From positions 1 to 64,000 of the forward strand of contig JAHISP010000052.1 in the NCBI GenBank assembly GCA_018818165.1: a DNA stretch of 64,000 nt, in the 5' to 3' direction. A model generated the notes under the pieces. It saw only the letters and a list, made by a program, of their open reading frames with translations. It was not told the DNA's origin and made no database searches. Below are positions 5,795-40,846 of the stretch, in pieces; the first letter of the stretch is position 1, and each line of letters opens with the position of its first letter. A program made the translations under genes and the position numbers. This DNA comes from Bacteroidota bacterium. GTDB lineage: Bacteria; Bacteroidota; Ignavibacteria; Ignavibacteriales; Melioribacteraceae.

Positions 5795-5835
5795 TGATAA
5801 TACCTCTTAATTAAAAATATGGTAGTTACTAATTA

Positions 5836-5864
5836 AAAGAAGACCTACAAAGTAGGTCTTCTTT
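5836..5864. terminator. Rho-independent terminator
   Basis: Perfect 13-bp stem AAAGAAGACCTAC / GTAGGTCTTCTTT with loop AAA, 12 bases beyond the stop of the 2595-residue gene and upstream of the next minus-strand gene. Confidence 0.9.
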
Positions 5865-5875
5865 ATAATTATAAA

Positions 5876-15051: not shown

Positions 15052-15116
15052 GTTTGAAATTATATATTAGCATTTGAAATCTTTAGAGTTTAAAGCATAA
15101 AATATTGGAGTAATTG

Positions 15117-19258: not shown

Positions 19259-19269
19259 TAACTAGACAG

Positions 19270-25863: not shown

Positions 25864-26699
25864 TGAGTGATATTGGATTAAAAATAACGAACAATAGCAA
25901 GCACATTGCACAACCTCAAACTTTTGAGAGTACTAAAACTCCAAAAGAAAAAGCAAAACTTGCAAAAGCTGCTCAAGATTTTGAGAGTATGCTTACTTCT
26001 ATGATGTTAAAAAGTATGAACCAAACTACTGGTGGAATGTTTGGAGAAGGAAGTTTTGGTGGTGATTATTTTGATACAATATTTGAAACAAAAATAGCTT
26101 CATTTATAAGTGAAAAAAAATCTCTAGGATTAGCCGATATGATTTACAAAAAAGTTATTGGTGAAGACTTGGATATGAATAAAATTAAACAAGAAATGCA
26201 ATCCGAGAATACAAAAAGCATAAAAATTGAAGCTTCAAAAGCCATAAAAAATGAAGCCATAAATGATTCAGTTTCTATTTCGCCAAGTAAAGGCTCCGTT
26301 GATAGATTAAGTAAATTTGATGACATTATTACAAAAGCTTCAGAATCATATAACATTGATAAAAACTTAATCCGCTCAGTTATACTTACAGAATCAGCCG
26401 CAAATCCTAAAGCACTTTCAAAAGCAAATGCCAAAGGTTTAATGCAATTAATAGATTCAACTGCTTCAGATATGAATGTTAAAAATGTTTGGAATCCGGA
26501 AGATAATATTTTTGGTGGATCAAAATATCTTTCCAAAATGCTGGAGAAATATGATGGTGATATAGAAAAATCACTTGCAGCCTATAATGCTGGTCCGGGA
26601 AATGTCGAAAAATATGATGGTGTTCCACCATTTGAAGAAACAAAAAATTATATAAACAGAGTAAAAGGTTACATGAAATATTGGGAGAATGAATTATGA
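25863..26699 (+). CDS. flgJ: FlgJ-type rod-binding protein fused to a lytic transglycosylase domain
   Basis: 278 residues. The N-terminal rod-binding domain (about 28-98: KAAQDFESMLTSMMLKSMNQT, FGGDYFDTIFE) is the FlgJ scaffold for rod polymerisation. A Lys/Ser-rich linker follows, then an SLT lytic transglycosylase domain (about 150-275). It has the catalytic Glu (ILTESAANPKAL, Glu177), AKGLMQL and SLAAYNAGPGNV. Enterobacterial FlgJ carries a glucosaminidase there instead. The fusion would cut peptidoglycan to let the rod through. TAATG overlap with flgI and ATGA overlap with flgN. Confidence 0.93.
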   Translation: MSDIGLKITNNSKHIAQPQTFESTKTPKEKAKLAKAAQDFESMLTSMMLKSMNQTTGGMFGEGSFGGDYFDTIFETKIASFISEKKSLGLADMIYKKVIGEDLDMNKIKQEMQSENTKSIKIEASKAIKNEAINDSVSISPSKGSVDRLSKFDDIITKASESYNIDKNLIRSVILTESAANPKALSKANAKGLMQLIDSTASDMNVKNVWNPEDNIFGGSKYLSKMLEKYDGDIEKSLAAYNAGPGNVEKYDGVPPFEETKNYINRVKGYMKYWENEL

Positions 26700-27157: not shown

Positions 27158-28515
27158 TGGGACTCAGTAGACTATTTGACATATCGAGTAGAAGTATGGC
27201 AACATACCAAAGAACCATGGATGTGGCTTCTAATAATATTGCTAATGCTGCCAACCCTGATTACAGAAGGCAAAGAGCAATTGTTTCCACAGAAAACACT
27301 CAGCAAAGTGCTGGTATAACTTGGGGAAGTGGCATTAAGCTTGATGACATACAACGAGTTCGTAGCTCGTTAACAGAAAATCAGATTATTAACAATAACC
27401 AAAATAAATCCTTTTTTGATAGAAGCTCAGTTTTGCTTGGACAAGTTGAAAATATTTATACTGAACCAACCGAGTTAGGAATTTCTTCTATGCTTGGTCA
27501 GTTTTTTAGTTCTTGGAGTGAGCTTTCTGCTAACCCAACTTCATCTGCATTACGTGGAAATGTTGTCTATTCCGCTCAAAATCTTGCAGCAAAGGTAAAT
27601 GAAATTAATGAAGGATTTCAAATTGTAAAATCATCCATTTTCTATGAATTTCAGGATAAAGTACAGGATATAAATGCCACTTTAAGTAGTCTTCAAAGTA
27701 TTAATCGCCAAATTTCTGAAGCAAAAGCAATTGGGCAAAATGCAAATGATTTGATGGACAAAAGAGATCTTTATGTTGATAATTTAAGTAAACTAGCAGA
27801 TATTACTGTTAATTACGAATCAGATGAAACCGTTAATATTTCAATTGGTGGAGTTTTTGCAGTTAATAAAGGTAGTTATACAACGTTTCAAGTTGAATAT
27901 ACAGAAGATAACCTGGCAATGATTGCACAAAATGGTGGAAAAAGTGTAAACCTTACAAAAGGTGAAATGGGTGCGTTGGCTGATACTTTCAATAATAAAA
28001 TACCAGATTATCAAGCGAAATTAGATTCAGTTATAACCCAATTAGTAAGTTCGGTTAATGAAATTCATAAAACTGGTAATGATTTAGGAAATCCTCCACA
28101 ATTAGGAATCAACTTTTTTGAAGAATATAATGGTAAAGAACTAAAAATTTCTAGTGATATTTTAAATGATTATAATAAAATAGCGGCTTCTAGTGATGGT
28201 ACATCTGGAAACGGAGATATTGCAATTAAAATATTTGAAATTAGTGAAGCCAATGTTTTAGATGGCGCAAAATTAATTGATGTATATTCATCACTAATAA
28301 GTGAAGTGGGTAGCCAAAAGCAAAACGCAGATAGAATGAATGAAGCAGGCGCAATGGTTCTTGCGCAATTAAATAATCAAAAAGATTCATATTCAGCAGT
28401 TTCAATTGACGAAGAAATGTTGAATGTAATGAAATATCAAAAAGCATACGAAGCATCAGCTAAACTAATACAAATGGCTGATGAAATGTTAGATACACTA
28501 ATACATATGGTATAA
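27157..28515 (+). CDS. flgK: Hook-filament junction protein FlgK (HAP1)
   Basis: 452 residues, at the short end for FlgK. The N-terminus has the rod/hook motif (MDVASNNIANAANPDYRRQRAIV). A long helical region follows (QDINATLSSLQSINRQISEAKAIG, then NDLMDKRDLYVDNLSKLADI, a strong FlgK signature). The C-terminus MLNVMKYQKAYEASAKLIQMADEMLDTLI completes the D0/D1 core. The variable outer domain is small. Confidence 0.94.
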   Translation: MGLSRLFDISSRSMATYQRTMDVASNNIANAANPDYRRQRAIVSTENTQQSAGITWGSGIKLDDIQRVRSSLTENQIINNNQNKSFFDRSSVLLGQVENIYTEPTELGISSMLGQFFSSWSELSANPTSSALRGNVVYSAQNLAAKVNEINEGFQIVKSSIFYEFQDKVQDINATLSSLQSINRQISEAKAIGQNANDLMDKRDLYVDNLSKLADITVNYESDETVNISIGGVFAVNKGSYTTFQVEYTEDNLAMIAQNGGKSVNLTKGEMGALADTFNNKIPDYQAKLDSVITQLVSSVNEIHKTGNDLGNPPQLGINFFEEYNGKELKISSDILNDYNKIAASSDGTSGNGDIAIKIFEISEANVLDGAKLIDVYSSLISEVGSQKQNADRMNEAGAMVLAQLNNQKDSYSAVSIDEEMLNVMKYQKAYEASAKLIQMADEMLDTLIHMV

Positions 28516-28517
28516 TT

Positions 28518-29411
28518 ATGAGAGTATCCGATTCAATGTTGCAAAGTAACTTTTTAAGCAACATTAATAATTCGAAAGAAAAAATGCAAAAATTGCAAAC
28601 GCAAGTTGCAAGCAATAATAAGATATCTAATCCATCAGATGCACCTTCTGGCGCTGCAAAAGTTATGCGTTTTAAAGCAAGTGTTTCACAAACTAAAGAT
28701 TTTATAAAAAATGTCGATAATAGCTCAGCGTTTCTTCAAGAAAGTATGCGAGGTTTAGAATACATCTTGGATGAAACAACTAAAATATTGATTGATTTAA
28801 CAAATGTTCAAAATCCGCAGAATGATGGTAATTTAAAATCGTTTGCGGAGCAGATTGATGCTTCGTTAAATATAATTTTAGAATCGGCTAATACCGAATT
28901 TAATGGACAATTTGTTTTTGGTGGAACTGATGATTCAACGTCTCCATATGGTTTTACTGCTGATAAATCGGCAATTGAATTAAAAGTGAGCGATGTTTCT
29001 GGAGATAGAAAAGTTAAAATCTCAAAAAATATTACTCAAAAGTTAAATGTTACTGGTTCAGATTTATTTGGAAATATAGATGGAACCGATATTTTTAATA
29101 AGCTTATTGAAATTAGAGACAACTTAAAAAATGGAATTAAACCAACAGATGATGATATTAAAACAATTGAGGATTTTTCAACCTCAGTTCGTAATCATCT
29201 TTCTGAAGCTGGAAACGTTGCTAATAAGCTTGATGCTTCAAAAGAAATATTGGGAAACCAAGTACTAACTTTAGAAGATTTAATTTCAAAAGAAAGTGAA
29301 ATTGATTTAGCAGCAGCAACAATAGAGTTGCAAAATTATGATTACAGTTTGCAGCTCTCTTATAAAATGTCATCTATGTTCCTTTCTAAATCTATTTTGG
29401 ATTATATATGA
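28518..29411 (+). CDS. flgL: Hook-filament junction protein FlgL (HAP3)
   Basis: 297 residues with flagellin-like ends. N-terminus: MRVSDSMLQSNFLSNINNSKEKMQKLQTQ, with KISNPSDAPSGAAKVMRFK. Middle: FNGQFVFGGTDDSTSPYG, a FlgL signature. C-terminus: IDLAAATIELQNYDYSLQLSYKMSSMFLSKSILDYI. Adjoins flgK; its stop overlaps motA (ATGA). Confidence 0.94.
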   Translation: MRVSDSMLQSNFLSNINNSKEKMQKLQTQVASNNKISNPSDAPSGAAKVMRFKASVSQTKDFIKNVDNSSAFLQESMRGLEYILDETTKILIDLTNVQNPQNDGNLKSFAEQIDASLNIILESANTEFNGQFVFGGTDDSTSPYGFTADKSAIELKVSDVSGDRKVKISKNITQKLNVTGSDLFGNIDGTDIFNKLIEIRDNLKNGIKPTDDDIKTIEDFSTSVRNHLSEAGNVANKLDASKEILGNQVLTLEDLISKESEIDLAAATIELQNYDYSLQLSYKMSSMFLSKSILDYI

Positions 29412-30187
29412 TAAAAAGGTTCGGCGCTTTTATTGGATTGTTTTTAGGAATTGGAGTGATATTTGGTTCTTTCCTTCTTGAAGGAGGCTCCATGCATGCG
29501 CTCTTTTTAATTGCTCCTATACTTATTGTTTTTGGTGGAACTTTTGCAGCTGTGATAATTGGTTTCGGGATGGAAGAATTTTTAATGATTTTTGAACTTG
29601 CAAAAAAAGCTTACTTTCCCCAAAAATATGATAACAGTAAATTGATTTCAATTTATTATGATTTTGCAGTTAAAGTTAGGAAAGAAGGTTTACTTTCAAT
29701 TGAACAGGAAATGCCGAGACTTGAATATTTATTTCCGAAAAAATTAATTAGATTTCTAATTGATGGTGCTACCGAAGAGACAATTGAAAATATTTCTCTT
29801 CTTGAAATGAAAATTATGAGAGAAAGACATTTTAGTAATGCCTTTATTTTTTCCAAAATGGGTGGTTACGCACCAACAATGGGAATACTCGGTACAGTAA
29901 TGGCTCTGATTTTAACTTTGGCTAATGTGGGTTCCGACCCAAATGTACTTATAAGAAATATTGCAACAGCGTTTATTGCTACCTTGTGGGGTGTATTAAG
30001 CGCAAATTTAATTTGGTTACCAATAAGTGATAGATTAAAAAAATGCCACATGGAAGAAAAACATATGATGGACTTGGCTCTGGAAGGAACCCTCGGGCTG
30101 ATGAGCGGGGAGGTTCCTCTAGTGGTGAAAACAAGATTGATAAGCTTATTACCTCAACAAGAGCAAAAGCAAATGCTAAATTTATAG
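29408..30187 (+). CDS. motA: Flagellar stator subunit MotA (first set)
   Basis: 259 residues, the short PomA-like MotA class. Four membrane helices: about 5-25, 30-52, 150-172 and 185-205. Cytoplasmic loop with RKEGLLSIEQEMPRL. The third helix region has GYAPTMGILGTVMALILTLANVG, the fourth IATAFIATLWGVLSANLIWLPI. It pairs with MotB to form the ion channel that turns the motor. The last 145 bases overlap the only available start of the following motB. A second motA lies at 32223-33074. Confidence 0.93.
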   Translation: MIKRFGAFIGLFLGIGVIFGSFLLEGGSMHALFLIAPILIVFGGTFAAVIIGFGMEEFLMIFELAKKAYFPQKYDNSKLISIYYDFAVKVRKEGLLSIEQEMPRLEYLFPKKLIRFLIDGATEETIENISLLEMKIMRERHFSNAFIFSKMGGYAPTMGILGTVMALILTLANVGSDPNVLIRNIATAFIATLWGVLSANLIWLPISDRLKKCHMEEKHMMDLALEGTLGLMSGEVPLVVKTRLISLLPQQEQKQMLNL

Positions 30188-30870
30188 ATGATGCACATGA
30201 GGAGGAATCTGGTGCTGATAGATATTTAATTACTTATGCTGATTTGATAACACTTTTATTAGGTTTGTTTATTATATTATATGCAATTTCTAATATTGAT
30301 GTGGCAAAATATGAAAAAGTAATGTCGGCAATGGGAAATGTTTTTGGAAGTGAAAAATTTAGAATAGATTCTAGTCTTCCAACACCATTCACTATAAAAA
30401 ATGACGTTTCAGTAAATCCGATGGATTTATTAAAGCAAGAATTAAATGATATTATAAATGTAAATGATTTAACAAACTCAGTAACTATTGAAAATAATCC
30501 ACGAGGAGTTACAATAAGAATATTAGATGATATTCTTTTTTCTTCTGGAGATGCTGAGTTAAGTAGTAAAGCGCAAGAGGTGTTAAAATTGGTTTCAGGA
30601 ATTATTAAAGAACTACCAAACGATATTAGGGTCGAGGGGCATACTGATAATATTATTATTAATTCACCCCAATACCCATCCAATTGGCATTTATCAATTG
30701 CGCGTGCTTTAAATACAGCTTATTACCTAATTCAAACTGAAGGTATTGATCCTGATAAAGTTTCTGTTGTTGGCTATTCTGAATATAACCCAATAGCAGA
30801 TAATTCAACACCAGAAGGAAGATCAAAAAATAGAAGAGTAGATATTATAGTCATAAATAATGCAGAGTAA
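30043..30870 (+). CDS. motB: Flagellar stator subunit MotB (first set)
   Basis: 275 residues. The membrane helix carries the ion-binding Asp (ITYADLITLLLGLFIILYA, Asp67). The C-terminal OmpA-like peptidoglycan-binding domain (about 155-272) has EGHTDNIIINS and GRSKNRRVDIIV. The start is odd. Between ATG 30043, inside motA in another frame, and the helix there is no in-frame ATG, GTG or TTG. Either the protein has a 60-residue Gly/Ser/charged N-terminal extension with 145 dual-coding bases, or translation uses a non-standard start after AGGAGG at 30199-30204. The core identity is secure. Confidence 0.9.
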   Translation: MPHGRKTYDGLGSGRNPRADERGGSSSGENKIDKLITSTRAKANAKFIDDAHEEESGADRYLITYADLITLLLGLFIILYAISNIDVAKYEKVMSAMGNVFGSEKFRIDSSLPTPFTIKNDVSVNPMDLLKQELNDIINVNDLTNSVTIENNPRGVTIRILDDILFSSGDAELSSKAQEVLKLVSGIIKELPNDIRVEGHTDNIIINSPQYPSNWHLSIARALNTAYYLIQTEGIDPDKVSVVGYSEYNPIADNSTPEGRSKNRRVDIIVINNAE

Positions 30871-30871
30871 A

Positions 30872-31252
30872 ATGAAACTAAAAACAGAACAATTTGGCGA
30901 AATAGAATACGCAAATGAAAATGTAATTCGTATCGCAAAAGGTCTTTTCGGATTTGAAAATCTCGAAGAATATCTTTTAATAAAAACCGATAATACACTT
31001 TTTTATTGGTTAAACTCAATTGAAGAGCCATCAGTTGCATTCCCAATGGTTGGGATTAATGTCTTAGATGACACTTATCCTCAGGTAGATGGTACCGAAC
31101 CATTTGGTATTGTAACCTTGGATAAAGACCCACTTAAAATTACGGTTAATATGAAAGCCCCACTATATATAAACCAAGATATTAAGACTGGAAAGCAAAA
31201 AATATTAGATAGAGAAAAGTATTTAGTAAATTATAAACTTTTTGTAGAATAG
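30872..31252 (+). CDS. fliW: Flagellar assembly factor FliW
   Basis: 126 residues from ATG 30872 (AGAG upstream); an in-frame ATG at 30860 overlapping motB adds four residues. The motif GEIEYANENVIRIAKGLFGFENLEEYLLI and FWLNSIEEPSVAFPMV-type core are FliW signatures. FliW binds CsrA as an antagonist and is itself titrated by flagellin. The csrA gene follows nine bases later, the arrangement known from Bacillus and Campylobacter relatives. Confidence 0.95.
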   Translation: MKLKTEQFGEIEYANENVIRIAKGLFGFENLEEYLLIKTDNTLFYWLNSIEEPSVAFPMVGINVLDDTYPQVDGTEPFGIVTLDKDPLKITVNMKAPLYINQDIKTGKQKILDREKYLVNYKLFVE

Positions 31253-31261
31253 GGGGATAAT

Positions 31262-31498
31262 GTGCTAGTACTTAAAAGAAAAATGAATGAAGAAATAATC
31301 ATCAATTCTAATATTGTTGTAAAAATTCTATCAGTCACAGATGGTCAAGTAAAAATTGGCATTGAAGCTCCAACAGAAATTGAAATATTTAGAGGTGAGG
31401 TTTTTGAAAAAGTAAAAGCAAATTTAATTTCTGCTGCTGAAAAGAGCAAAGAAAAGGTTGCTGGTATTACTGAATTTAAAATAAATAAATTGTTATAA
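31262..31498 (+). CDS. csrA: Carbon storage/translation regulator CsrA
   Basis: 78 residues starting at GTG 31262 (AGGGGG upstream), which reproduces the canonical MLVLKRKMNEEIIIN N-terminus. VKILSVTDGQVKIGIEAP and EIFRGEVFEKVKAN complete the family core. It binds GGA-containing hairpins in mRNA leaders. Pairing with FliW next door indicates control of flagellar gene translation. Compare the GGA-containing leader hairpin upstream of flgE. Confidence 0.96.
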   Translation: MLVLKRKMNEEIIINSNIVVKILSVTDGQVKIGIEAPTEIEIFRGEVFEKVKANLISAAEKSKEKVAGITEFKINKLL

Positions 31499-31518
31499 AT
31501 TAAATCTAGGAAAATTAG

Positions 31519-32211
31519 ATGCATAAAACCGTTCTAATTGTTGATGATTCGGAAATTACAAGACATGCGTTGCAAAGTTTTTTTCTTGACTGCAACTTAA
31601 ATGTAATTACTTGCAACGATGGACTTGAAGGAGTTCAAAAAGCTTTAGAATATAAACCTATTATTATATTCCTTGATTTAATGATGCCAAATCTTAATGG
31701 CGTTAAGATGCTTCAAGTTATAAAAGTAATGGATGATTTAAAACATATACCTGTTGTAGTAATTAGCGGTAATACAAACAAAAGGAATGTATTGGCTGCT
31801 ATAGAAGCAGGTGCTGAACGTGTAATTTCCAAACCCTTAAAAAAGGAAATTATTATTCAAGTTGTTAATGAAATTTTAGGTAAAGATTTTCTTGTTAAGA
31901 ACAGAGGTGAAACCAAATTTACTTACAAAGAAAACGATGAACTTACTAAACAACTTCGTAATTTTTTCTTAAATAGCTTCCCTGAAAAAGAGAGAGGTAT
32001 TTTGGAATCATTTAAGACAAAAAATATTGAGCTTCTTAAAATGATTACTCACGAAATTAAAGGAACTGGTGGTGCAATCGGTTATCCAGAAATTACAATT
32101 CTTGCTGGTGAAATTTATGGAAGGCTGATGGAACCCAAAACCAATTGGGAAATTATTGAGCTTAAATATGATGATATTTTTGCAATTATAAAAAAGATGA
32201 AAAATTCATAA
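31519..32211 (+). CDS. Response regulator with receiver plus HPt domain
   Basis: 230 residues. The receiver domain (about 1-120) has the phospho-acceptor Asp53 in IIIFLDLMMPNLNG, acidic pair VDDS and Lys105. The C-terminal HPt domain (about 140-228) carries His178 in THEIKGTGGAIGYPEI. This is a two-site phosphorelay intermediate with no DNA-binding output. It sits between csrA and the second stator pair, so it may relay signals to motor or chemotaxis proteins. Upstream kinase unknown; the PAS kinase at 35797-37629 is a candidate by proximity. Confidence 0.9.
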   Translation: MHKTVLIVDDSEITRHALQSFFLDCNLNVITCNDGLEGVQKALEYKPIIIFLDLMMPNLNGVKMLQVIKVMDDLKHIPVVVISGNTNKRNVLAAIEAGAERVISKPLKKEIIIQVVNEILGKDFLVKNRGETKFTYKENDELTKQLRNFFLNSFPEKERGILESFKTKNIELLKMITHEIKGTGGAIGYPEITILAGEIYGRLMEPKTNWEIIELKYDDIFAIIKKMKNS

Positions 32212-32222
32212 AGGAATAGGAT

Positions 32223-33074
32223 ATGTTATTCGTTGGTATATTGGTCGTTCTTGGTGCTGTAATTTCTGGATTTGTGCTTTCTGGTGGTGATGTGCACTTA
32301 TTATTGCAGCCATATGAAGTTCTTGTAATAGTTGGTGCAGCAATTGGAAGCGTACTAATAAGTACTCCAATGCCAATGATAAAAAAATTAGTTGCTGGAG
32401 TATCAGCATCAATTAAGGGCTTTCATGTTTCTAAACAAGATTATTTAGAACTGTTAAAATCCTTTAATGAACTATTTTTGGTTGCCCAAAGAGACGGACT
32501 TTTGTCAATTGAATCTCATATTGAAAATCCTAAAGAAAGTACTATCTTATCTCAAAACAAAAAATTTATTAATGATAATTTTATTGTTGATTTTTTCTGT
32601 GATTCAATGAAAGTGATGTTAACTGGTTCCGTTCCTCCACACGATTTGGAAGAATTAATGGATTCTGAAATTGAAACTTTTGAAATTGAAAGTGAACCAA
32701 TTGCAGGCACTATTGCTACAATGGGCGATGCATTTCCTGCACTTGGAATTGTGGCTGCAGTATTAGGTATTATTATTACAATGGGTTCAATAAACGAAGG
32801 TCCAGAAGTTGTAGGTCACCACGTTGCAGCCGCACTTGTAGGCACATTTCTTGGCGTACTTTTAGCCTATGGTATTGTTGGTCCAATTTCTGTAAAAATG
32901 CATCATGATATTGCAGATAAGAAACGACATTTGGAAACAATTAAAACTGCTGTACTTGCTTATGCAAAAGGAAATCCTCCAATAATTGCTCTTGAAATTG
33001 CTAGACGTACTATTTTTAGTGAAAACAGACCAACTTTTAATGAACTTGAAAACTACCTAAGAGGAAAGAGCTAG
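32223..33074 (+). CDS. motA: Flagellar stator subunit MotA (second set)
   Basis: 283 residues, the longer E. coli-like MotA class. The N-terminal helices (FVGILVVLGAVISGFVLSGGD) are followed by the cytoplasmic loop (LFLVAQRDGLLSIESHIENPKES). The later helices have MGDAFPALGIVAAVLGIIITMGSI and VAAALVGTFLGVLLAYGIVGPI. It differs clearly from the first MotA (29408-30187), so the two are separate lineages and not a recent duplication. Followed four bases later by its motB. Confidence 0.94.
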   Translation: MLFVGILVVLGAVISGFVLSGGDVHLLLQPYEVLVIVGAAIGSVLISTPMPMIKKLVAGVSASIKGFHVSKQDYLELLKSFNELFLVAQRDGLLSIESHIENPKESTILSQNKKFINDNFIVDFFCDSMKVMLTGSVPPHDLEELMDSEIETFEIESEPIAGTIATMGDAFPALGIVAAVLGIIITMGSINEGPEVVGHHVAAALVGTFLGVLLAYGIVGPISVKMHHDIADKKRHLETIKTAVLAYAKGNPPIIALEIARRTIFSENRPTFNELENYLRGKS

Positions 33075-33078
33075 TAAA

Positions 33079-33849
33079 ATGGCTGATAATAAACAACCAA
33101 TTATAATAAAAAAAATCACCAAAAAAGGTGGCGGTCATCATGGTGGTGCTTGGAAGGTTGCATATGCAGATTTTGTTACTGCTATGATGGCTCTATTTAT
33201 TGTTCTTTGGATTTTGGGTCAAGATCAGGAAGTTAAAGATGCAGTTTCTGGTTATTTTAGAGACCCGGTTGGTTATTCGTTAAAAAGTAGAGCCATGATT
33301 GATAACGCAAATATAAGTCCACAAATAACGTCAATGAATCAGAGAGATTTAGATCAGATAAACAAAGAAGAGGAAGAAAGACGCTTTGAGGAAATGAAGG
33401 ATGATTTAACATCGGAGCTTAGTGAAGATGCAAATTTTATTCCTTTGCTTGATCAAATGACAATTGAAATGACAACTGATGGTATGCGAATTGAAATGTT
33501 GGAATCTGAAAATGATGTTTTCTTTGAATTAGGCAGCTCGGAGTTAAGTCCAAAAGCTAAGAAATTTTTAGAAATTGTAGGTGCAAAACTTGCTGAGTTT
33601 CCTAATAAAATTGCAATTGAAGGACATACAGATGCAAGACCTCTAAACAGTAGTGGTAGCTACACAAATTTTGAACTAAGCACAGATAGAGCAAATAGTG
33701 CAAGAAGAACATTAGTAAATGGTGGCGTTCCGGCAAAGCAAATTGATGAAATTATAGGTTTCGCCGATAAAAGATTAAAGGATAAAAATGATCCGAATAG
33801 TGTGGTTAATAGAAGGATTAGTATTATTTTAAAATATATTGATAGATAA
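33079..33849 (+). CDS. motB: Flagellar stator subunit MotB (second set)
   Basis: 256 residues. The N-terminus is Lys/His/Gly-rich (KKITKKGGGHHGGAWKVAYADF), typical of proteobacterial MotB, with the ion-binding Asp31 at the start of the helix (ADFVTAMMALFIVLWILG). The C-terminal OmpA-like domain has IEGHTDARPL and NRRISIILKY. Unlike the first MotB its start is unambiguous. The last gene before a short gap containing a perfect palindrome. Confidence 0.94.
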   Translation: MADNKQPIIIKKITKKGGGHHGGAWKVAYADFVTAMMALFIVLWILGQDQEVKDAVSGYFRDPVGYSLKSRAMIDNANISPQITSMNQRDLDQINKEEEERRFEEMKDDLTSELSEDANFIPLLDQMTIEMTTDGMRIEMLESENDVFFELGSSELSPKAKKFLEIVGAKLAEFPNKIAIEGHTDARPLNSSGSYTNFELSTDRANSARRTLVNGGVPAKQIDEIIGFADKRLKDKNDPNSVVNRRISIILKYIDR

Positions 33850-33873
33850 AATATGCTCTTGCTATAGGTTAGA

Positions 33874-33899
33874 TTATTTTTTGTTATAACAAAAAATAA
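33874..33899. promoter_or_regulatory. Perfect 26-bp palindrome between motB and a receiver gene
   Basis: TTATTTTTTGTTA followed directly by its reverse complement TAACAAAAAATAA, with no loop. It lies in an 86-base gap, 37 bases before the start of the receiver gene at 33936. The lack of GC pairs and of a loop argues against an ordinary terminator, though it is close enough to the motB stop to serve as a weak one. A binding site for a dimeric protein is possible. Confidence 0.45.
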
Positions 33900-33935
33900 A
33901 TGATTGTATGCTAATTTAGATGATGATATAAATAG

Positions 33936-34337
33936 ATGAAAAAGAAAATAATTATAATGGAAGATGACCCTTTCTTAAAGGAGTTTTATTCATTCATATT
34001 TAATAAAATTGGATATGATGCTGATATTCTTGAAGATGGTGATGTTTTTTTCGCAAAATTAAACTGTGCGAAATATAATCTGATTTTAATGGATTTGAGT
34101 TTGAAAAACACATATTTTAATAATAACAAAGTTGATGGAGTTACACTTTCACGGCTTGTGAAGGAAAACATTATATTTAAGACTATTCCCATTATTATTG
34201 TAACAGCTCACTCTGTTGATTATCATTCCAAACATTTATTTGAGGAAAGTCTTGCTGATGCGTATATTATTAAACCAATTAGTGATGTTCATCAATTTAT
34301 TAATAAAATAGACCTTGTTATGGAAAAGTACAATTAA
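33936..34337 (+). CDS. Single-domain response regulator
   Basis: 133 residues, receiver domain only. Acidic residues MEDDPF near the N-terminus, phospho-acceptor Asp53 in LILMDLSLKN, Thr/Ser in VTAHS, and Lys in IIKPIS. An insertion (KNTYFNNNKVDG) lengthens the loop after the Asp. No output domain. First gene after the break that follows the second stator pair; together with the next three genes it forms a signalling cassette. Confidence 0.88.
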   Translation: MKKKIIIMEDDPFLKEFYSFIFNKIGYDADILEDGDVFFAKLNCAKYNLILMDLSLKNTYFNNNKVDGVTLSRLVKENIIFKTIPIIIVTAHSVDYHSKHLFEESLADAYIIKPISDVHQFINKIDLVMEKYN

Positions 34338-34352
34338 ATTTGAAAGTGAAAA

Positions 34353-35015
34353 ATGGAAGAGATTAGAGAAAAAGTTCTTATTGTTGAAGATGAACCTGAT
34401 ACAAGATTTATTCTTAGTAAGTTACTTGAAAAAGAAAATTATGATGTTGCTTCTGTAGCTAATGGAATTGAGGCTCTTAAAAAACTAGAGACTTTTTTAC
34501 CAAAAGTTATCATTGCCGATTGGACAATGCCACAAATGGATGGACTTGAACTTTGTGATAGAATTAAGAAAAAAGAAAAACTTAAATCTATATATTATAT
34601 TATTTTAACTGCTCGCTCAGCCGTAAAGGATAGAGTTAAAGGTTTGGATGTTGGTGCTGATGATTTTCTATTAAAACCGACTGAAAACCAAGAACTTCTT
34701 GCGCGCATTAGATCGGGAATTAGAATTTACAATCTGCAAACGGAACTTAAACATTCCGAACATGAAAAAGCGCTTTTGGAAATGGCAGCAACAATAGGAC
34801 ATAATTTAAATAATCCACTTGGAAGTTTAAAATTGTTTGTATCTGATCTAGAATCACAGCTTAAAGAAAATAATTTGAATAATTTCTCGGAAGATTTTAG
34901 TTTAATCAATCAATCAATAGATAGAATTAGTGCTTTAGTAAAAGACTTGGCAAAATTAAAAGACCCAAAATCAGAGACCTATATCTCTGATACAAAGATG
35001 ATTAAATTAAACTAA
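34353..35015 (+). CDS. Receiver domain fused to a DHp domain lacking an ATPase
   Basis: 220 residues. A complete receiver domain (about 6-125; Asp56 in VIIADWTMPQMDG, Lys109) is joined to a HisKA-like two-helix segment. That segment has a good H-box, MAATIGHNLNNPLGSLKL, with His150. The protein ends about 55 residues later, where a kinase would continue with its ATP-binding domain. No ATPase remnant follows in any frame before the next gene. It may act as a phosphotransfer protein resembling Spo0B or as a partner for another kinase's catalytic domain; inference. Confidence 0.85.
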   Translation: MEEIREKVLIVEDEPDTRFILSKLLEKENYDVASVANGIEALKKLETFLPKVIIADWTMPQMDGLELCDRIKKKEKLKSIYYIILTARSAVKDRVKGLDVGADDFLLKPTENQELLARIRSGIRIYNLQTELKHSEHEKALLEMAATIGHNLNNPLGSLKLFVSDLESQLKENNLNNFSEDFSLINQSIDRISALVKDLAKLKDPKSETYISDTKMIKLN

Positions 35016-35081
35016 AGATTTTATGTTTTTAGCTCATTCAATTATTTATATTTTTATAATAGTAAATTAATTGGTTTAATT

Positions 35082-35726
35082 ATGTTAGAACGCATTGGTA
35101 ACGTATCGTTAGAAGTGGATTTTAATAAATCCAAAAAAGGAAAATATTCTCATTCAAAAGGTGGCATTTATGAGAATGCTTCTTTTAATATTAATGATTC
35201 TATTTCATTTTCTCCGGCTTCCAAATATTTGTCCAGAGCAAATTGGTTACTTAAAGAGTTTCAACATTCTTCCGAAGATAAAGTAATTGTTGAGTTTATT
35301 TATGGGGGATTTTATTTTGAAGTTCATTTAGATCTAAAATCAATCAATTCATTAGAAACAATTAGTTATACTATTAGAAAAGATGACTCCATTAGGGTTG
35401 AAATTAACCCAATAATTGCAAGCTTAAAAATCGTAATTGGAACTGCAAATGAATCAATGCCATTACAAAAGGAATTAAAAGGATTAGGTCAACTGTTCAA
35501 TAGGTTTACTTCTCTTGATTTAAAAAATGAATTAAATATTTATAATTACGAGTTAATTGACACGCTTTTGGACGGAATTTATTCATCACTTCAAAGCGAT
35601 TTTACATATTTGAATAATATTTTGTTTAATTTTCTGGAAAAACAAACCAATAGAAAATTAAATGTTATGTTAAATAAAAACAAAAATGCAACGGAGTTAA
35701 ACCTAATTAAAATTAGGCCATTTTAA
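35082..35726 (+). CDS. Protein of unknown function in the signalling cassette
   Basis: 214 residues, no signal peptide or membrane helix. The first half is predicted mixed and beta (VIVEFIYGGFYFEVHLDLKSI), the second half helical (YNYELIDTLLDGIYSSLQSDFTYLNNILFNFLEKQ). No motif recognised. Flanked by a receiver-DHp protein and a PAS histidine kinase in the same direction, so a signalling or motility role is plausible from context only. Confidence 0.65.
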   Translation: MLERIGNVSLEVDFNKSKKGKYSHSKGGIYENASFNINDSISFSPASKYLSRANWLLKEFQHSSEDKVIVEFIYGGFYFEVHLDLKSINSLETISYTIRKDDSIRVEINPIIASLKIVIGTANESMPLQKELKGLGQLFNRFTSLDLKNELNIYNYELIDTLLDGIYSSLQSDFTYLNNILFNFLEKQTNRKLNVMLNKNKNATELNLIKIRPF

Positions 35727-35796
35727 TTTAATAAAATACGAAGAAGTAAATTAATTTATTGCTCAAACTCCCATTTGGATAAGCTGAAAAGAAAAT

Positions 35797-37629
35797 ATGA
35801 ATAGCAAATTAAACTTAAATGAAACAAATAATTTTGAAATATTAGCCCATAAATCATGGTTAATTGTTGATTCTTCTGGAAATATAAAGTTTTCGAATGA
35901 AACTTTTAAGCATTTATTTTTGCTTGAAGATGACAAAAATATTAAGCAATTAAATTTTGAGCCAAATATACATGGAATTATTTCCAAATTAGCAGAAAAG
36001 GATATTAATAGTTTCGACAATATTTTTATTTACGAAGAAAACAATAAAATTTATAACTATAAAATAGAAATTGAAAAAATTTTACTTTTAAATTCAAATT
36101 TTTACATTCTTGTTTTTAGTCGTTTAGATGAACAAAATAATATTGAAGATAAAATAAGTAATCTCCATTTTGCATTAGAATATGGAAAAGTTCCTGTAAT
36201 GATTTTTGATAATAATGGAATGATTTCTTTTGCTACCAATACTTTTGAGAGAATTCTTGATTTTGAATTAGATGAAATTTATAATAATCATATTTCAACA
36301 ATTCTTTCAAAGCACTTGTCCCACGAAAAGTTACAAAAACTTGAAGAATCAATCAAAAATGGTCGTCAGTGGAATGAAACAGTTTCTTTATCACTTGTTA
36401 ATGAAACTAAATTTTATTTTGAATTAAAGCTTAATCCAATACTTAATGAAAGTGGTTCAATTTTAAATTTTGTACTTACTGCTCACGATATAACATATTA
36501 TATATCAAAAAATGAATTAACTCAAAAATCCGAAAACCGCTTAAAATCTATAATTAACAATATTTCAGATTTACTTATAATTCTGAAACAATCAAACGAT
36601 TTCATTTATTTCGAAAATGGAAATAATACATTTCTAAAAACATTTAATTTAGAAAAAGAATCAATTCTGCATAAAATATTTGAAGACGTTATTCCTGGCA
36701 AATTAGCTTCTAAAATAAAAAGTGAAATAACCTTACTAAAAAAGAATGAAGAACTTAGTTGTAAATTTAATTTTGATATTGATGACAGAGCATATGCAGG
36801 ACGAATTATAATAATTGAAGATGTTGATTCTAATGAAAATTTGTATGTTATAAGTCTTAAAGATATAACCGATGAACGGGATAAAAGGAAACAACTTAAC
36901 GAACTTTATAGAAAAGAATTGCAAGTTAACAGACTAAAAACAACATTTCTTCAAAATATGTCACACGAAATTAGAACTCCTTTTACAGCAATTATGGGTT
37001 ATTCTGATATTATGGTAGAAAGTATTGAGGAAAAGGATTATGACACTGTTATTGAAATAACCGATTCTCTTAAAAGTGTATTAAATAGAGTAATGAATTT
37101 ATTTGAAAGTATTCTCGAAGTTTCCGAAATTCAATCTGGTGAAGTAGTTTTAGAAAATGTTTTAATGAATTGTAATCAAATTCTAAAATCAGTTTGCGCT
37201 AAAAAGAACCCAGAAGCGAAATTAAAGGGAATTGAAATAGAACTGGACCTGGATAGTCAAGATTATTTATGTGAAATTGATTGGTTAAAATTTGAACGTC
37301 TAATACTAAATTTAGTTGATAATGCTATTAAATATACCGATTTTGGAAAAATTAAAGTATCATCCAGAAAAACTAAAGAATATGTAACAATAACAATATC
37401 TGATACTGGTTTGGGCATTAATGAAACAGTTATTTCACAACTTCTTAAACCATTTATTCAAGAAGAGCTTGATGGACATTCCAGAAACTATGAGGGTGCT
37501 GGTTTGGGTTTAACAATTGCATATGAATATACTAAGTTAATGAATGGCGAAATGCATATTAAAAGCAAAAAAAATGTTGGGACCGAAATTTTTCTAAACT
37601 TTCCAACTCAGTTTGATACAATAAATTAA
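35797..37629 (+). CDS. PAS-domain sensor histidine kinase
   Basis: 610 residues, no membrane helix, so cytoplasmic. Three PAS-like segments at about 15-110, 125-235 (VPVMIFDNNGMISFATNTFERIL) and 250-355. DHp domain with phospho-acceptor His390 in MSHEIRTPFTAIMGYS. Complete ATPase domain: N-box LILNLVDNAIKYTD, G1 DTGLGI, G2 GAGLGLTIAYEY. Unlike the kinase-like proteins nearby, all catalytic motifs are present. It is thus the best candidate donor for the receiver and HPt proteins of this block. Followed 13 bases later by a bacteriohemerythrin gene, which suggests an oxygen-related input. Confidence 0.92.
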   Translation: MNSKLNLNETNNFEILAHKSWLIVDSSGNIKFSNETFKHLFLLEDDKNIKQLNFEPNIHGIISKLAEKDINSFDNIFIYEENNKIYNYKIEIEKILLLNSNFYILVFSRLDEQNNIEDKISNLHFALEYGKVPVMIFDNNGMISFATNTFERILDFELDEIYNNHISTILSKHLSHEKLQKLEESIKNGRQWNETVSLSLVNETKFYFELKLNPILNESGSILNFVLTAHDITYYISKNELTQKSENRLKSIINNISDLLIILKQSNDFIYFENGNNTFLKTFNLEKESILHKIFEDVIPGKLASKIKSEITLLKKNEELSCKFNFDIDDRAYAGRIIIIEDVDSNENLYVISLKDITDERDKRKQLNELYRKELQVNRLKTTFLQNMSHEIRTPFTAIMGYSDIMVESIEEKDYDTVIEITDSLKSVLNRVMNLFESILEVSEIQSGEVVLENVLMNCNQILKSVCAKKNPEAKLKGIEIELDLDSQDYLCEIDWLKFERLILNLVDNAIKYTDFGKIKVSSRKTKEYVTITISDTGLGINETVISQLLKPFIQEELDGHSRNYEGAGLGLTIAYEYTKLMNGEMHIKSKKNVGTEIFLNFPTQFDTIN

Positions 37630-37642
37630 TAGTGAGAAATAA

Positions 37643-38050
37643 ATGCCACTTATAGTTTGGGATGAAAGTTATAGCGTAAATGTTCATTTAATAGATGGAC
37701 AACATAAAAAGCTTTTTGACTTGGCAAATGAATATCAAACTGCTTTAACCAATGGAAAATCTCACGATGCACTTAAGCAGCTTCTTGATGGTTTACTAAA
37801 TTATGCAGCTATCCATTTTGGAACAGAAGAGCGGTATTTTACGCAATTTGGCTATGATGATATGGAAGCCCATAAAAGAGAACACAAAATTTTTAATGCT
37901 AAAGTTTCTGACATTATAAAAAAAAGAAAAATTGGGGAAGAAGTTGGTCAAAACGAAGTTACTAAATTTCTAAAAATTTGGTTAGAGGGACACATAAAAG
38001 GAACCGATCATAAATACATAGAACTTTTCAATAAAAATGGATTAAGATAA
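37643..38050 (+). CDS. Bacteriohemerythrin
   Basis: 135 residues, the normal single-domain length. All seven diiron ligands are visible: His21 (DGQHKKLF), His58 and Glu62 (HFGTEE), His77 and His81 (HKREH), His117 and Asp122 (HIKGTD). It starts with MPLIVWDESYSV, a standard opening. Hemerythrins bind O2 reversibly and may deliver or sense oxygen. It ends the plus-strand motility and signalling run. Confidence 0.95.
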   Translation: MPLIVWDESYSVNVHLIDGQHKKLFDLANEYQTALTNGKSHDALKQLLDGLLNYAAIHFGTEERYFTQFGYDDMEAHKREHKIFNAKVSDIIKKRKIGEEVGQNEVTKFLKIWLEGHIKGTDHKYIELFNKNGLR

Positions 38051-38059
38051 TCTATTTTC

Positions 38060-39094
38060 TTACCTTTTTTTATTTACTTGCTCATTTCTTAAAGCTCCAA
38101 ATAAAATTGTTTCACCAGTAGGTACAAACGTTCCTTCTTTTTTCTCTTTAGTAATTCGGAACATTTCAATTTCATCTTTCATTACAAAAGGGATTTCTGA
38201 AATTCGCATATACTTTTTATCTGGGCGTATTTCAAAAGTACCCAAAGAAAATGTACCACTTTTTGAAACAAGCCATAATTGGAATGTCATATCTGCATCC
38301 AAATGAGGCATATTTTGTAATTGCAATAATCCTTCGCCAGAACCAAATGCAGTAAATAGTTTTCCACTTTCTTTCGAATTTGGATTGGTGCTTTTTAGAG
38401 CTATTATATCTATGGATGGATTGTTGAAAAATTCTACAAATTCCATATTTTGATTTACAAAATCATCAGTTCGCAACAAATCTGTTCTAAGCTTTACAAG
38501 TTTATTGGTTAAGTCTAAGTTTTTTTCATCAAGTATAGAAATTCTATCTAACAAAGTATAAGAAATAAAAGCCAATGCAATTAATAATATTCCAGAAAAT
38601 ACCCAAAGTAAAATGATATTTAAATTTGAAGACTTTTTAACTGGAATTGTGGTTGTATTTAAACGAGTTATTTTCTCATTTTTTTTAGGAAGTGTTTTTA
38701 ATTCAGATTGTTTTGGCTTTTCTACATTAATCGAATTATGATTCCCTTCCATACGTTTTTCATTTACATCAAATATCTTTGTTGTAGAATTTCTTTGTAC
38801 AAAATCTGTAGCTCCTACAATTCTTGTTTCACGTCTGTTTTCAATAACATTATTCTTTAGATCTTTCTGAATTTGAATTAGCCTTTTACCAAGTTCATTT
38901 TTCAACTCCTCATTAGGAGTATCAATATTTAGAATTGTAGGAATTAATGAAATAATATTTTGCAAATCGCCAAGTTCACCTGCTGGCAACTTACCATTAT
39001 TTTCAAAATAACTTCTAAATTGTTTGAAATTGGTCTTATCCATACAGCCAAGAGCAAACGCACTTATCATTTCTTTTATTGCATCATCAGCCAT
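38060..39094 (-). CDS. Membrane anti-sigma factor (RskA-like)
   Basis: 344 residues. The N-terminal cytoplasmic part (about 1-80) is an anti-sigma-like helical domain (ALGCMDKTNFKQFRSYFENN). A charged linker precedes one membrane helix (about 158-182). The extracytoplasmic C-terminus (about 235-340) matches the RskA/anti-sigma-K domain (MTFQLWLVSKSGTFSLGTFEIRPDKKY, VPTGETILFGAL). It is two bases downstream of the ECF sigma gene that it presumably holds inactive. Its end is ten bases from the convergent hemerythrin gene, with no obvious terminator between. Confidence 0.85.
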   Translation of the reverse strand: MADDAIKEMISAFALGCMDKTNFKQFRSYFENNGKLPAGELGDLQNIISLIPTILNIDTPNEELKNELGKRLIQIQKDLKNNVIENRRETRIVGATDFVQRNSTTKIFDVNEKRMEGNHNSINVEKPKQSELKTLPKKNEKITRLNTTTIPVKKSSNLNIILLWVFSGILLIALAFISYTLLDRISILDEKNLDLTNKLVKLRTDLLRTDDFVNQNMEFVEFFNNPSIDIIALKSTNPNSKESGKLFTAFGSGEGLLQLQNMPHLDADMTFQLWLVSKSGTFSLGTFEIRPDKKYMRISEIPFVMKDEIEMFRITKEKKEGTFVPTGETILFGALRNEQVNKKR

Positions 39095-39096
39095 TG

Positions 39097-39663
39097 TTAA
39101 CCACCTAGTAAATTCTCTCTAAGTTTATCTAATGCCAAAGTAATTTTTGACCTAACAGTTGGTACAGGAATGTTCAATTTTTCAGCTATTTGATCCAAGG
39201 TCAATCCTTCATAGAAAGATAAAAGTAAAACATACTTTTGAGCATCTGTTAAATTATCTAGTGCTTCCGAAATCTCTGGTTTTACTTTCATTGCAGAATT
39301 TAGCGATAGCGAATCAATGGTATTATCTAGAATTGGAATAACGTAAAAATCCTCATATATATCGTCTTCTTTAGCCAACTCACCCTTATTTCGTAAATAT
39401 TCAACCGCTTTGTTTCTAGTAAGCATTATCATCCACGTATAAACATTACCTGTTTTAAAACTGAAAAGATCTATTTTTTTCCAAACAACTGTAAAAACAT
39501 CCAATAATATTTGTTCGGAAACTTTTTCGTCACTTACAATTTTTTTTATTAGGGAATAAAGTATAGGAGAATATCTAAGATAAAGTTCTTCTAAGGCTTT
39601 AGAATCGTACTTTACTATATGTTCAAAAATCTCTATGTCTGAAATGTCTTTGTAACTTGTCAA
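39097..39663 (-). CDS. ECF-family RNA polymerase sigma factor
   Basis: 188 residues. Region 2 at about 20-90 (LEELYLRYSPILYSLIKKIV, VFTVVWKKIDLF, VYTWMIMLTRNKAVEYLR). Region 4 at about 130-185 (LTDAQKYVLLLSFYEGLTLDQIAEKLNIPVPTVRSKI). Layout matches SigK-type ECF factors, consistent with the RskA-like partner. The start is TTG 39663; no in-frame ATG lies close upstream or before region 2. Confidence 0.92.
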   Translation of the reverse strand: MTSYKDISDIEIFEHIVKYDSKALEELYLRYSPILYSLIKKIVSDEKVSEQILLDVFTVVWKKIDLFSFKTGNVYTWMIMLTRNKAVEYLRNKGELAKEDDIYEDFYVIPILDNTIDSLSLNSAMKVKPEISEALDNLTDAQKYVLLLSFYEGLTLDQIAEKLNIPVPTVRSKITLALDKLRENLLGG

Positions 39664-39913
39664 CTTATCAACATTATATTATTTTCAATGATAATAAATG
39701 TAACAAACTTCCATGATTAATAAAAGAATATGAAAAGTTAATAACAAAGGTTTTTGTATTTATACTGATTTTAATCATATAAATTAAGTTAAAATACCAT
39801 TGAAATTGAATAATCCTTGTATCTATCCGAATTCCTTTCTAAATATGAGAGCATATATATATTTTAATAGTTCAAATATTTCAAGAAAAGAATTTAATTT
39901 TTACGGGTTTATA

Positions 39914-40846
39914 ATGAAGAAGTTTCTAAATAAAACAGAATTTAAGGAATATGTTGCAATAACAATTGGCGCCATAATAATGTCACTAGGAATTGGTGTC
40001 TTTCTTGTTGACGCAAAAGTAGTTCCAGGCGGTGTAAGTGGAATTGGAATGGCAATTTATTATTTAACTGATGGGTTGGTTTCAGTTGGTCTCTCCGTTT
40101 GGATACTTAACGTACCTCTTTATATTTGGGGCGTAAAAGTTTTAGGTAAACGATTTGGAATACGAACATTTTATGGGTTTTCAGTAAATGCTATTTTTAT
40201 AGATTTTTTCAGAGGAGACATTCCAGGCTTTGGGTTCATCCGTTTACAAGATTCTCAAACTATTCATAATCTTTTACAGAACGATTTTCTTTTTTTAATA
40301 ATAATTGGTGGCGCACTTCTTGGTATTGGATTAGGAATTGTCTTCAAAAATCAAGGTACAACTGGTGGAACTGATATTATTGCAGCCATTATTCACAAAA
40401 AGTATCATACTAAACAAGGTATGACAATTTTAGTTCTTGACGTGGTTGTTATTTTAATTGCTGGAATGGCAATTGAGTATAAATCGCTTCCAATGGATAA
40501 ACCAACATTATTATTAATGCTCTATGCCCTTTTCCTTGGAGTGGTTTCATCGCGAATAATTGATATTATTATTGATGGATTTGATTATGCACGCCAGGCT
40601 TATATTGTTTCCGATAAAAGCAGTGAAATTGCCGAAAGAATTATTACTGATTTAAGTAGAGGCGCTACTGCAATTAAAACTCGCGGACTTTATAAAAACA
40701 TTGATAGAGAAATGATTACTACAATTGTTACTTTAAAAGAATTAGGTAAACTTACCGAAATAATTAAAGAAATTGATCCTAATGCATTTGTGGTAATTAA
40801 TAATGTTCACGAAGTTTTAGGTGAAGGATTTAGAAGAAGGATTTAA
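39914..40846 (+). CDS. YitT-family membrane protein
   Basis: 310 residues from ATG 39914; an upstream TTG frame from 39800 is open but lacks membrane-protein character. Five or six membrane helices (about 8-30, 40-62, 75-95, 118-140, 165-185), with GGVSGIGMAIYYL and NQGTTGGTDIIAAII, are typical of the DUF161/YitT family. The C-terminal cytoplasmic DUF2179 domain (about 220-305) has RGATAIKTRGLYKN and VHEVLGEGFRRRI. Substrate and role are unknown for most members. Divergent from the ECF sigma gene. Confidence 0.9.
   Translation: MKKFLNKTEFKEYVAITIGAIIMSLGIGVFLVDAKVVPGGVSGIGMAIYYLTDGLVSVGLSVWILNVPLYIWGVKVLGKRFGIRTFYGFSVNAIFIDFFRGDIPGFGFIRLQDSQTIHNLLQNDFLFLIIIGGALLGIGLGIVFKNQGTTGGTDIIAAIIHKKYHTKQGMTILVLDVVVILIAGMAIEYKSLPMDKPTLLLMLYALFLGVVSSRIIDIIIDGFDYARQAYIVSDKSSEIAERIITDLSRGATAIKTRGLYKNIDREMITTIVTLKELGKLTEIIKEIDPNAFVVINNVHEVLGEGFRRRI

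Follow-up and report, generated by a model that had tools for sequence, protein, structure and literature searches.

A conserved putative phosphorelay cassette around the motAB stator genes of Melioribacteraceae and their order

Multistep His-Asp phosphorelays, such as Spo0F/Spo0B and CtrA/ChpT, combine a kinase with receivers and histidine phosphotransfer proteins, and Spo0B and ChpT consist of a DHp domain followed by a degenerate catalytic-like domain. Flagellar two-component systems of the FleSR, FlrBC, and FlgSR type include a sigma-54 activator, split histidine kinases carry the DHp domain apart from the catalytic domain, and CheY-like receivers of Caulobacter are said to bind the motor. 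HmrABCX of Caulobacter acts on motility through a putative relay (PMC11481889). Here we analyze a gene cassette from a bacterium of the Melioribacteraceae (Bacteroidota), located in positions 1 to 64,000 of contig JAHISP010000052.1 (assembly GCA_018818165.1), a stretch of 64,000 nucleotides referred to below as the window. The cassette consists of a receiver-phosphotransfer protein (REC-HPt), a stand-alone receiver (REC), a receiver joined to a DHp domain without ATPase (REC-DHp), a conserved protein of no assigned family (UNK), a PAS kinase, and a bacteriohemerythrin. A preliminary description had read these components from the DNA, and all of them were confirmed at the positions listed in Table 1.

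The cassette shares its kinase, receivers, and histidine phosphotransfer proteins with the multistep phosphorelays, and HmrABCX is likewise a putative motility relay, but linkage to motAB and the presence of UNK set it apart from both. REC-DHp resembles the split histidine kinases in its separation from a catalytic domain; it differs in having also lost the acidic residue for phosphorylation and in having a receiver of its own, and it lacks the degenerate domain of Spo0B and ChpT. As in FleSR, FlrBC, and FlgSR, a kinase is tied to flagella, whereas the sigma-54 activator pair is separate here, beside an flgM-like gene. By analogy with the CheY-like receivers of Caulobacter, lone receivers of the cassette might influence the motor through direct contact; the cassette differs in having relay partners, and a link to cyclic di-GMP has no support in this case. 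No description of the cassette was found in the literature searched (mostly titles and beginnings of abstracts among the results listed), and the cited part of the Melioribacter description mentions flagellar motility and neither a histidine kinase nor chemotaxis (PMC3534657). REC-DHp and UNK are the unusual parts, the others being of known kinds.

Distribution and gene order of the cassette

The closest MotA proteins among named contigs belong to metagenome-assembled genomes of Ignavibacteriales and Melioribacteraceae (94, 89, and 81% identity), and the order discussed below, around these two groups, takes its name from these contigs. Among 148 genomes spread across the phylum, 23 gave a MotA match (E up to 1e-20) and 15 a UNK match (E up to 0.01), and all 15 UNK-bearing genomes belong to the window's order. 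Of 164 genomes within the order, 107 matched UNK (profile A2, E up to 0.001) and 105 matched MotA (E up to 1e-30). Both were present in 104 genomes and neither in 56, while three genomes had UNK only (G160, G237, and G290) and one had MotA only (G251); all four were judged to reflect contig breaks (loci L181, L154, L176, and L199). UNK represents a new, unnamed protein family that accompanies the flagellum almost as faithfully as MotA does.

The gene order is nearly fixed in 112 loci and runs FlgL, MotC/MotD-like, FliW, a CsrA-size open reading frame (ORF), REC-HPt, MotA, MotB, REC, REC-DHp, UNK, and PAS kinase. (L065, on the same contig as L104, L068, whose shown rows are identical to those of L133, and L069 stand outside this set.) The 94 loci with both MotB and UNK included REC-HPt in 86, MotA in 88, REC in 89, REC-DHp in 92, the PAS kinase in 81, and the hemerythrin in 2, several of the missing genes being accounted for by contig ends. 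The kinase lies 3′ of UNK across a gap of -101 to 34 bases, with starts set mechanically, in all but two loci with both genes. In the window, motA and motB sit inside the cassette at 32223-33849, between REC-HPt and REC. Every cassette gene is an uninterrupted ORF, all are co-directional, the intergenic gaps from REC-HPt through the hemerythrin measure 4-86 bases, and the four terminator-like sites in positions 28000-40000 all lie on the minus strand. The preliminary description had proposed linked kinase, receivers, and histidine phosphotransfer proteins without DNA-binding output and had asked for their conservation beside motAB; this arrangement proved to be kept in order with motAB across a bacterial order, and the scattering that would have spoken against it was not seen. 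On these comparative grounds, the cassette is not a chance cluster but an order-wide flagellar signaling module, presumably inherited vertically with the stator genes. A whole order of flagellated bacteria would thereby possess a relay that is inherited with its stator genes and has no transcriptional output of its own.

Departures from this layout were seen in several genomes. REC is missing from the locus in G140 and G149 (genus g13) and in G252 (g88), and the slots of G223 lack REC, REC-HPt, and kinase (L140 and L149; REC and REC-HPt were sought only there), while REC-DHp and UNK stay. An apparent 434-amino-acid REC-DHp fusion in L140 was dismissed, since the ORF start had been set too far upstream and runs over motB in a different frame. 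An in-frame MotB-REC fusion in L166 (G273) is most likely a frameshift, because the C-terminal end of MotB is periplasmic; this locus is tabulated as lacking REC and was not counted as a real absence. In G291 and G292, UNK and the kinase lie about 30 kb away from motAB and the rest of the cassette. In L142 (G291) they adjoin three genes for SpoIIE phosphatases together with one STAS gene and one for an anti-sigma-type ATPase, as Pfam shows, and L144 has ORFs of similar sizes (Pfam was run on L142 only). G227 carries REC, REC-DHp, UNK, kinase, and hemerythrin on two contigs (L105 and L106) with about 80% DNA identity over 4.1 kb, which represents either a duplication or a mixed assembly.

Outside the order, eight genomes contained MotA, and the slot directly after motB was occupied by a REC-HD_5 gene in 6 of the 6 loci examined, a count that leaves out G023, G039, and the second copy in G093. 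This gene of about 400 amino acids was considered as a full REC-kinase, which was rejected on the Pfam assignment; its HD_5 output is presumably of the HD-GYP type. REC-HPt and UNK had no match in the motAB loci examined outside the order. The REC-HD_5 gene of other families in the class thus holds the same place as REC-DHp, with HD_5 rather than DHp as its output. In a tree of 47 receivers, those of REC-HD_5 and REC-DHp fell on one side of a branch with 97/75 support, which is below the starred class in a tree whose bootstrap had not settled and in which one HD_5 row is very long. Together these results suggest, without proving, that an HD-type output was swapped for DHp behind motB.

Phosphoacceptors and candidate wiring

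Residue conservation was counted, with the window copies among the aligned rows, on the best ORF per locus above bit-score floors of 120 (REC-HPt), 100 (REC), 200 (REC-DHp), 60 (UNK), and 350 (kinase). The stand-alone REC keeps Asp53 and Lys113 in 96 of 96 rows, and REC-HPt keeps its phospho-Asp in 92 of 92 and its HPt His in 89 of 92. The kinase His is present in 88 of 93 rows, from which divergent kinases (e.g., L114, L134, and L141) are excluded; the departures are two Ile, one Ser, and two truncated ORFs, and genus g13 has lost this His in all three genomes seen (Ile, Ile, and Ser). The kinase is without a membrane-type hydrophobic stretch (maximum KD19, 1.17, versus 2.76 for MotA). Although the window REC-HPt alone gives a below-threshold Pfam Hpt match (E 0.13), 17 of 18 REC-HPt orthologues, the window copy included, match Hpt (E up to 1, best 5.5e-11), and an AlphaFold2 model (pLDDT, a model confidence score, of 86.4) displays a C-terminal helical bundle with His178 within a helix. 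The 50 Foldseek matches listed for this model are receiver-domain proteins and are silent on the HPt part. With a full kinase, a receiver, an HPt, and conserved phosphoacceptors, the cassette has the makeup of a His-Asp phosphorelay.

REC-DHp keeps Asp56 in 102 of 103 aligned rows (one gap) and the Lys, His150, and Asn154 in all 103. Residue 151, which follows the phospho-His, is Lys in 65 rows, Gln in 19, Asn in 17, and Glu in 2, so that an acidic residue is absent in 101 of 103, the window copy among them. Pfam found no HATPase domain in the window REC-DHp, and the protein ends after DHp; the orthologues, of similar length, also end shortly after DHp (the Pfam scan covered the window copy). 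By domains and residues, REC-DHp is not a HisKA sensor kinase, lacking both HATPase and the acidic residue after the phospho-His, nor is it of the Spo0B/ChpT type, since no degenerate catalytic-like domain follows DHp in the same protein. In CrdS and three other HisKA proteins, which had catalytic domains unlike REC-DHp, Willett and Kirby report that kinase activity alone depends on the acidic neighbor of the His and phosphatase activity alone on the Thr/Asn four residues past it (PMC3510030). Because residue 151 is non-acidic, Asn154 is kept, and the catalytic domain is lacking, REC-DHp should not autophosphorylate but should dephosphorylate or shuttle, which makes it, by prediction, a phosphatase or phosphotransfer protein devoid of kinase activity. 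The presence of an ATPase-less REC-DHp in the relay, as described earlier, thus stands, and the residues refine its role.

Losses of REC offer a view of how the parts may be connected. The HPt motif was scored as intact if His and the Gly four residues on are present, so that L104, with Ser replacing Lys at +3, qualifies. Of 86 loci with REC and REC-HPt, 85 have an intact motif, the exception, L121, being a split ORF. All three loci that have REC-HPt without REC, from two lineages, show an altered motif: G140 and G149 retain the HPt His but have a different residue for the Gly, and G252 has lost the HPt His. The HPt His is also lost in G251, a congener of G252 in which the REC slot lies past the contig end, and the kinase His is replaced by Ser in G153, a congener of G140 for which the presence of REC is undetermined. 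This pattern suggests that REC feeds the HPt and that the two degenerate together; since the HPt is altered where REC is missing and g13 has lost the kinase His too, kinase, REC, and HPt may form one branch.

Covariation was measured as mutual information between donor helices and receiver interface columns for seven pairs, at an effective depth of 19 to 55 sequences. The kinase DHp showed 2.1-fold enrichment against REC (p 0.008 with both sides shifted and 0.064 with the receiver only) and 2.1-fold against the REC-DHp receiver (p 0.009 and 0.008), and no enrichment against the REC-HPt receiver (0.9-fold). Taking the REC-DHp helices or the HPt as donors gave 1.0 to 1.5-fold enrichment (p 0.12 or more). 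These figures lend weak support to transfer from the kinase to REC and to the REC-DHp receiver.

Proposed relay and alternative explanations

The linkage to motAB, the near-strict co-occurrence of UNK and MotA, the near-invariant phosphoacceptors, and the kinase-incompetent signature of REC-DHp are established by comparison; we infer a His-Asp-His-Asp flow of phosphoryl groups through the cassette. The cytoplasmic PAS kinase would autophosphorylate on His390 and donate to the stand-alone REC and to the REC-DHp receiver. From REC, the phosphoryl group would move to the HPt of REC-HPt and end on the receiver of that same protein, while REC-DHp, unable to autophosphorylate, would drain or shuttle phosphate via His150 and Asn154 and so set the level of the relay. 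UNK, encoded beside the kinase, would serve as a flagellum-specific adaptor, and the output would be exerted by protein contact with a stator, switch, or assembly factor rather than by DNA binding. The cassette probably tunes the flagellum without touching DNA, and this output may be motor control, or else control of assembly or expression. We give about even odds to the full proposal, namely a vertically kept accessory phosphorelay of the flagellum with this wiring and a contact output; the cassette opens to direct testing by which routes besides CheA-CheY two-component signals could arrive at the motor.

Several observations weigh against this proposal. Only few lineages are without REC (genera g13, g88, and g133), and the two g13 loci of this kind keep the HPt His, only the Gly being altered. 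The REC-DHp helices covary with REC, a pair that was not predicted, by mean score (p 0.009; enrichment, 1.12-fold, p 0.30), and the covariation signal is lost under strict correction for seven tests. The kinase is missing or replaced beside UNK in G066, G211, G193, G225, and G223 and is divergent in G253 (E 6.5e-13). Relocation within the first five genomes was considered, and no orthologue was recognized (best E 9.8e-20 to 2.4e-13), compared with E 1.0e-48 or better for reference orthologues in G000, G252, G293, G295, G140, and G149. REC and HPt are intact in all kinase-deviant genomes but G223, which implies that another kinase serves there or that the kinase is dispensable. In G293 and G295, REC-DHp is gone from the cassette and is found beside a fliA-type sigma gene (54-55% identical to that of the window). 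Finally, a REC-DHp orthologue (E 1.5e-107) is encoded in G261, a genome without matches to flagellin, MotA, or UNK.

UNK itself has no Pfam or NCBIfam family above cut-off and no sequence match in the PDB (E up to 1), and its AlphaFold2 model, built from five sequences, reached a pLDDT of 44. Asp39 and Ser44 are conserved in 106 of 107 rows (one gap). MASE10 was matched below threshold by 3 of 19 orthologues (best E 0.0048), which is unconvincing because UNK has no membrane stretch and MASE domains are membrane sensors. UNK may be a degenerate catalytic domain split from REC-DHp. Its residues 1-64 aligned by hhalign with the FlgM-like family found in these genomes (27 rows) at E 2.4e-4 (probability 44%, score 24.4), in a comparison chosen after the likeness had been noticed by eye. 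Control scores reached no more than 14.4 for 40 shuffled or reversed controls and no more than 13.2 for 20 halves, N- or C-terminal, of ten other cassette families; full-length UNK gave a weaker match (E 8.6e-4, probability 24%), and FlgM (PF04316) was not among the 12 families matched by 19 UNK members (E up to 5). The N terminus of UNK thus weakly resembles the N-terminal part of FlgM, which we regard as a lead. UNK is unlikely to be a substitute anti-sigma-28 factor, because a separate FlgM-like protein (19.6 bits, Pfam cut-off 25) lies beside the flagellin genes of this genome; at E up to 0.1, 32 of 59 genomes in the order have such a match, which exceeds the cut-off in 4. We consider it improbable that UNK is an export-coupled partner of the PAS kinase, with a FlgM-like leader of the flagellar-secretion type, that binds the kinase or lets it go depending on the status of the flagellar export apparatus. 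If this were true, the phosphorelay would report assembly status to the stators, in the manner of a FlgM-like switch whose target is a kinase and not a sigma factor. Two further observations concern FlgM-like and UNK-like sequences. Just outside the window (L208), the FlgM-like protein (6130-6396) is encoded with a short HisKA kinase and a sigma-54 activator response regulator (3907-6016) beside the flagellin genes, and an FlgJ-like protein (window 25863-26699) contains, between its two domains, the stretch NDSVSISP, which is similar to the DSxxxSPA motif of UNK.

The cassette might control flagellar assembly or gene expression rather than torque, with the relay or UNK reporting the assembly state and acting on sigma-28 (FliA/FlgM) or CsrA/FliW partners. 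The position of csrA and fliW directly upstream, the adjacency of REC-DHp to the fliA-type sigma gene in G293 and G295, and the hhalign match between UNK residues 1-64 and FlgM all favor such a role; yet motAB lies nearly always inside the cassette, the genome has a separate FlgM-like protein and sigma-54 kinase/regulator pair, and the FlgM likeness was tested post hoc and weakens with full-length UNK. We find this explanation somewhat unlikely. It is less probable still that the genes are co-transcribed with motAB through operon history and serve a general, non-flagellar two-component network. REC-DHp persists in G261 in the company of a shorter kinase of 377 amino acids (HisKA-HATPase, with no PAS called by Pfam), and UNK and the kinase are remote from motAB in G291 and G292, next to the SpoIIE/STAS genes in G291. 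A general network fits poorly, however, with the presence of UNK in 104 of 105 MotA genomes and, among the 59 genomes that gave no MotA match, in just 3, at contig breaks. REC-DHp was sought in six genomes with no match to MotA, and G261 alone has an orthologue: none was found in G082, G236, G248, and G249 (E up to 1e-40), and G265 has a weak match only (E 1.5e-43). Flagellin was not found in G261, G265, G082, and G236. The G261 locus (L244) also contains a weakly GAF-like protein with REC-DHp and the shorter kinase.

The preliminary description had further put forward O2 as a possible cue. The last gene of the cassette in the window, which starts 13 bases behind the kinase, does encode a bacteriohemerythrin (NF033749, 127.2 versus 84 bits), with H21, H58, E62, H77, H81, H117, and D122, which we take to be iron ligands. 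A hemerythrin gene also follows the kinase in G226 and on both G227 contigs, and an oxygen-sensing relay, in which the hemerythrin delivers O2 to the kinase or gates it for aerotaxis, would fit these loci. All of them belong to the window's genus, however, and G229, of the same genus, has no hemerythrin within 304 bases after the kinase (the contig of G228 ends inside the kinase). The gene is found in only 2 of 94 MotB and UNK loci, some of which end before its place, and the window genome has five hemerythrin-domain matches. The hemerythrin thus looks like a later local add-on in one genus, outside the conserved unit. Oxygen as a general cue was not borne out, hemerythrin beside the kinase being confined to this genus among the loci examined, and an oxygen-sensing relay appears very improbable.

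Features of the window and neighboring genes

The coordinates of the cassette and of the genes preceding it are collected in Table 1. Further chemotaxis genes in the window are cheB, cheA, a cheZ-like gene, two cheY genes, and cheR. Part of the window ORFs was scanned for receivers, which gave at least six (three in the cassette, CheB, and two CheY) instead of the five counted earlier.

Table 1. Positions of the cassette genes and the genes preceding them in the window
Feature	Position	Strand	Evidence
First stator gene, MotA/MotC-like (259 amino acids)	29408..30187	+	NCBIfam PRK08124 MotA 201 bits, PRK09109 flagellar motor protein 185.9 bits, both below cut-off
First stator partner, MotD/MotB-like (start set mechanically)	30043..30870	+	NCBIfam PRK09038 MotD 199.8 bits, below cut-off 283
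FliW	30860..31252	+	Pfam FliW E 2.3e-21
CsrA	31262..31498	+	Pfam CsrA E 2.4e-21
REC-HPt (putative phospho-Asp53, phospho-His178)	31519..32211	+	Pfam REC E 4.3e-22; HPt from orthologues and AlphaFold2 model
MotA, second stator pair	32223..33074	+	TIGR03818 330.3 bits, above cut-off 303.8
MotB, second stator pair	33079..33849	+	PRK09041 E 2.4e-71, 240.2 bits, below cut-off 277
Stand-alone receiver REC (putative phospho-Asp53)	33936..34337	+	Pfam Response_reg
REC-DHp without catalytic domain (Asp56, His150, non-acidic residue 151, Asn154)	34353..35015	+	Pfam REC and HisKA
UNK, conserved protein with N-terminal DSxxxSPA motif	35082..35726	+	No family above cut-off
Cytoplasmic PAS-HisKA-HATPase kinase (His390)	35797..37629	+	Pfam PAS, HisKA, and HATPase
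Bacteriohemerythrin	37643..38050	+	NF033749 127.2 bits, above cut-off 84

Elsewhere in the window, the N-terminal and TIM-barrel parts of a glycoside hydrolase of family 2 are divided between two ORFs (15114-15839 and 15935-16897), perhaps as a broken gene or a frameshift, and two adjacent HDOD genes (18392-20136) come right after the fliA-type sigma gene of the flagellar cluster. An extracytoplasmic function-type sigma factor and an RskA_C anti-sigma-like protein are encoded on the minus strand at 38060-39663 and converge on the cassette. Their orthologues occupy the same place in L065/L104, and ORFs of the same size and strand are present in L106.

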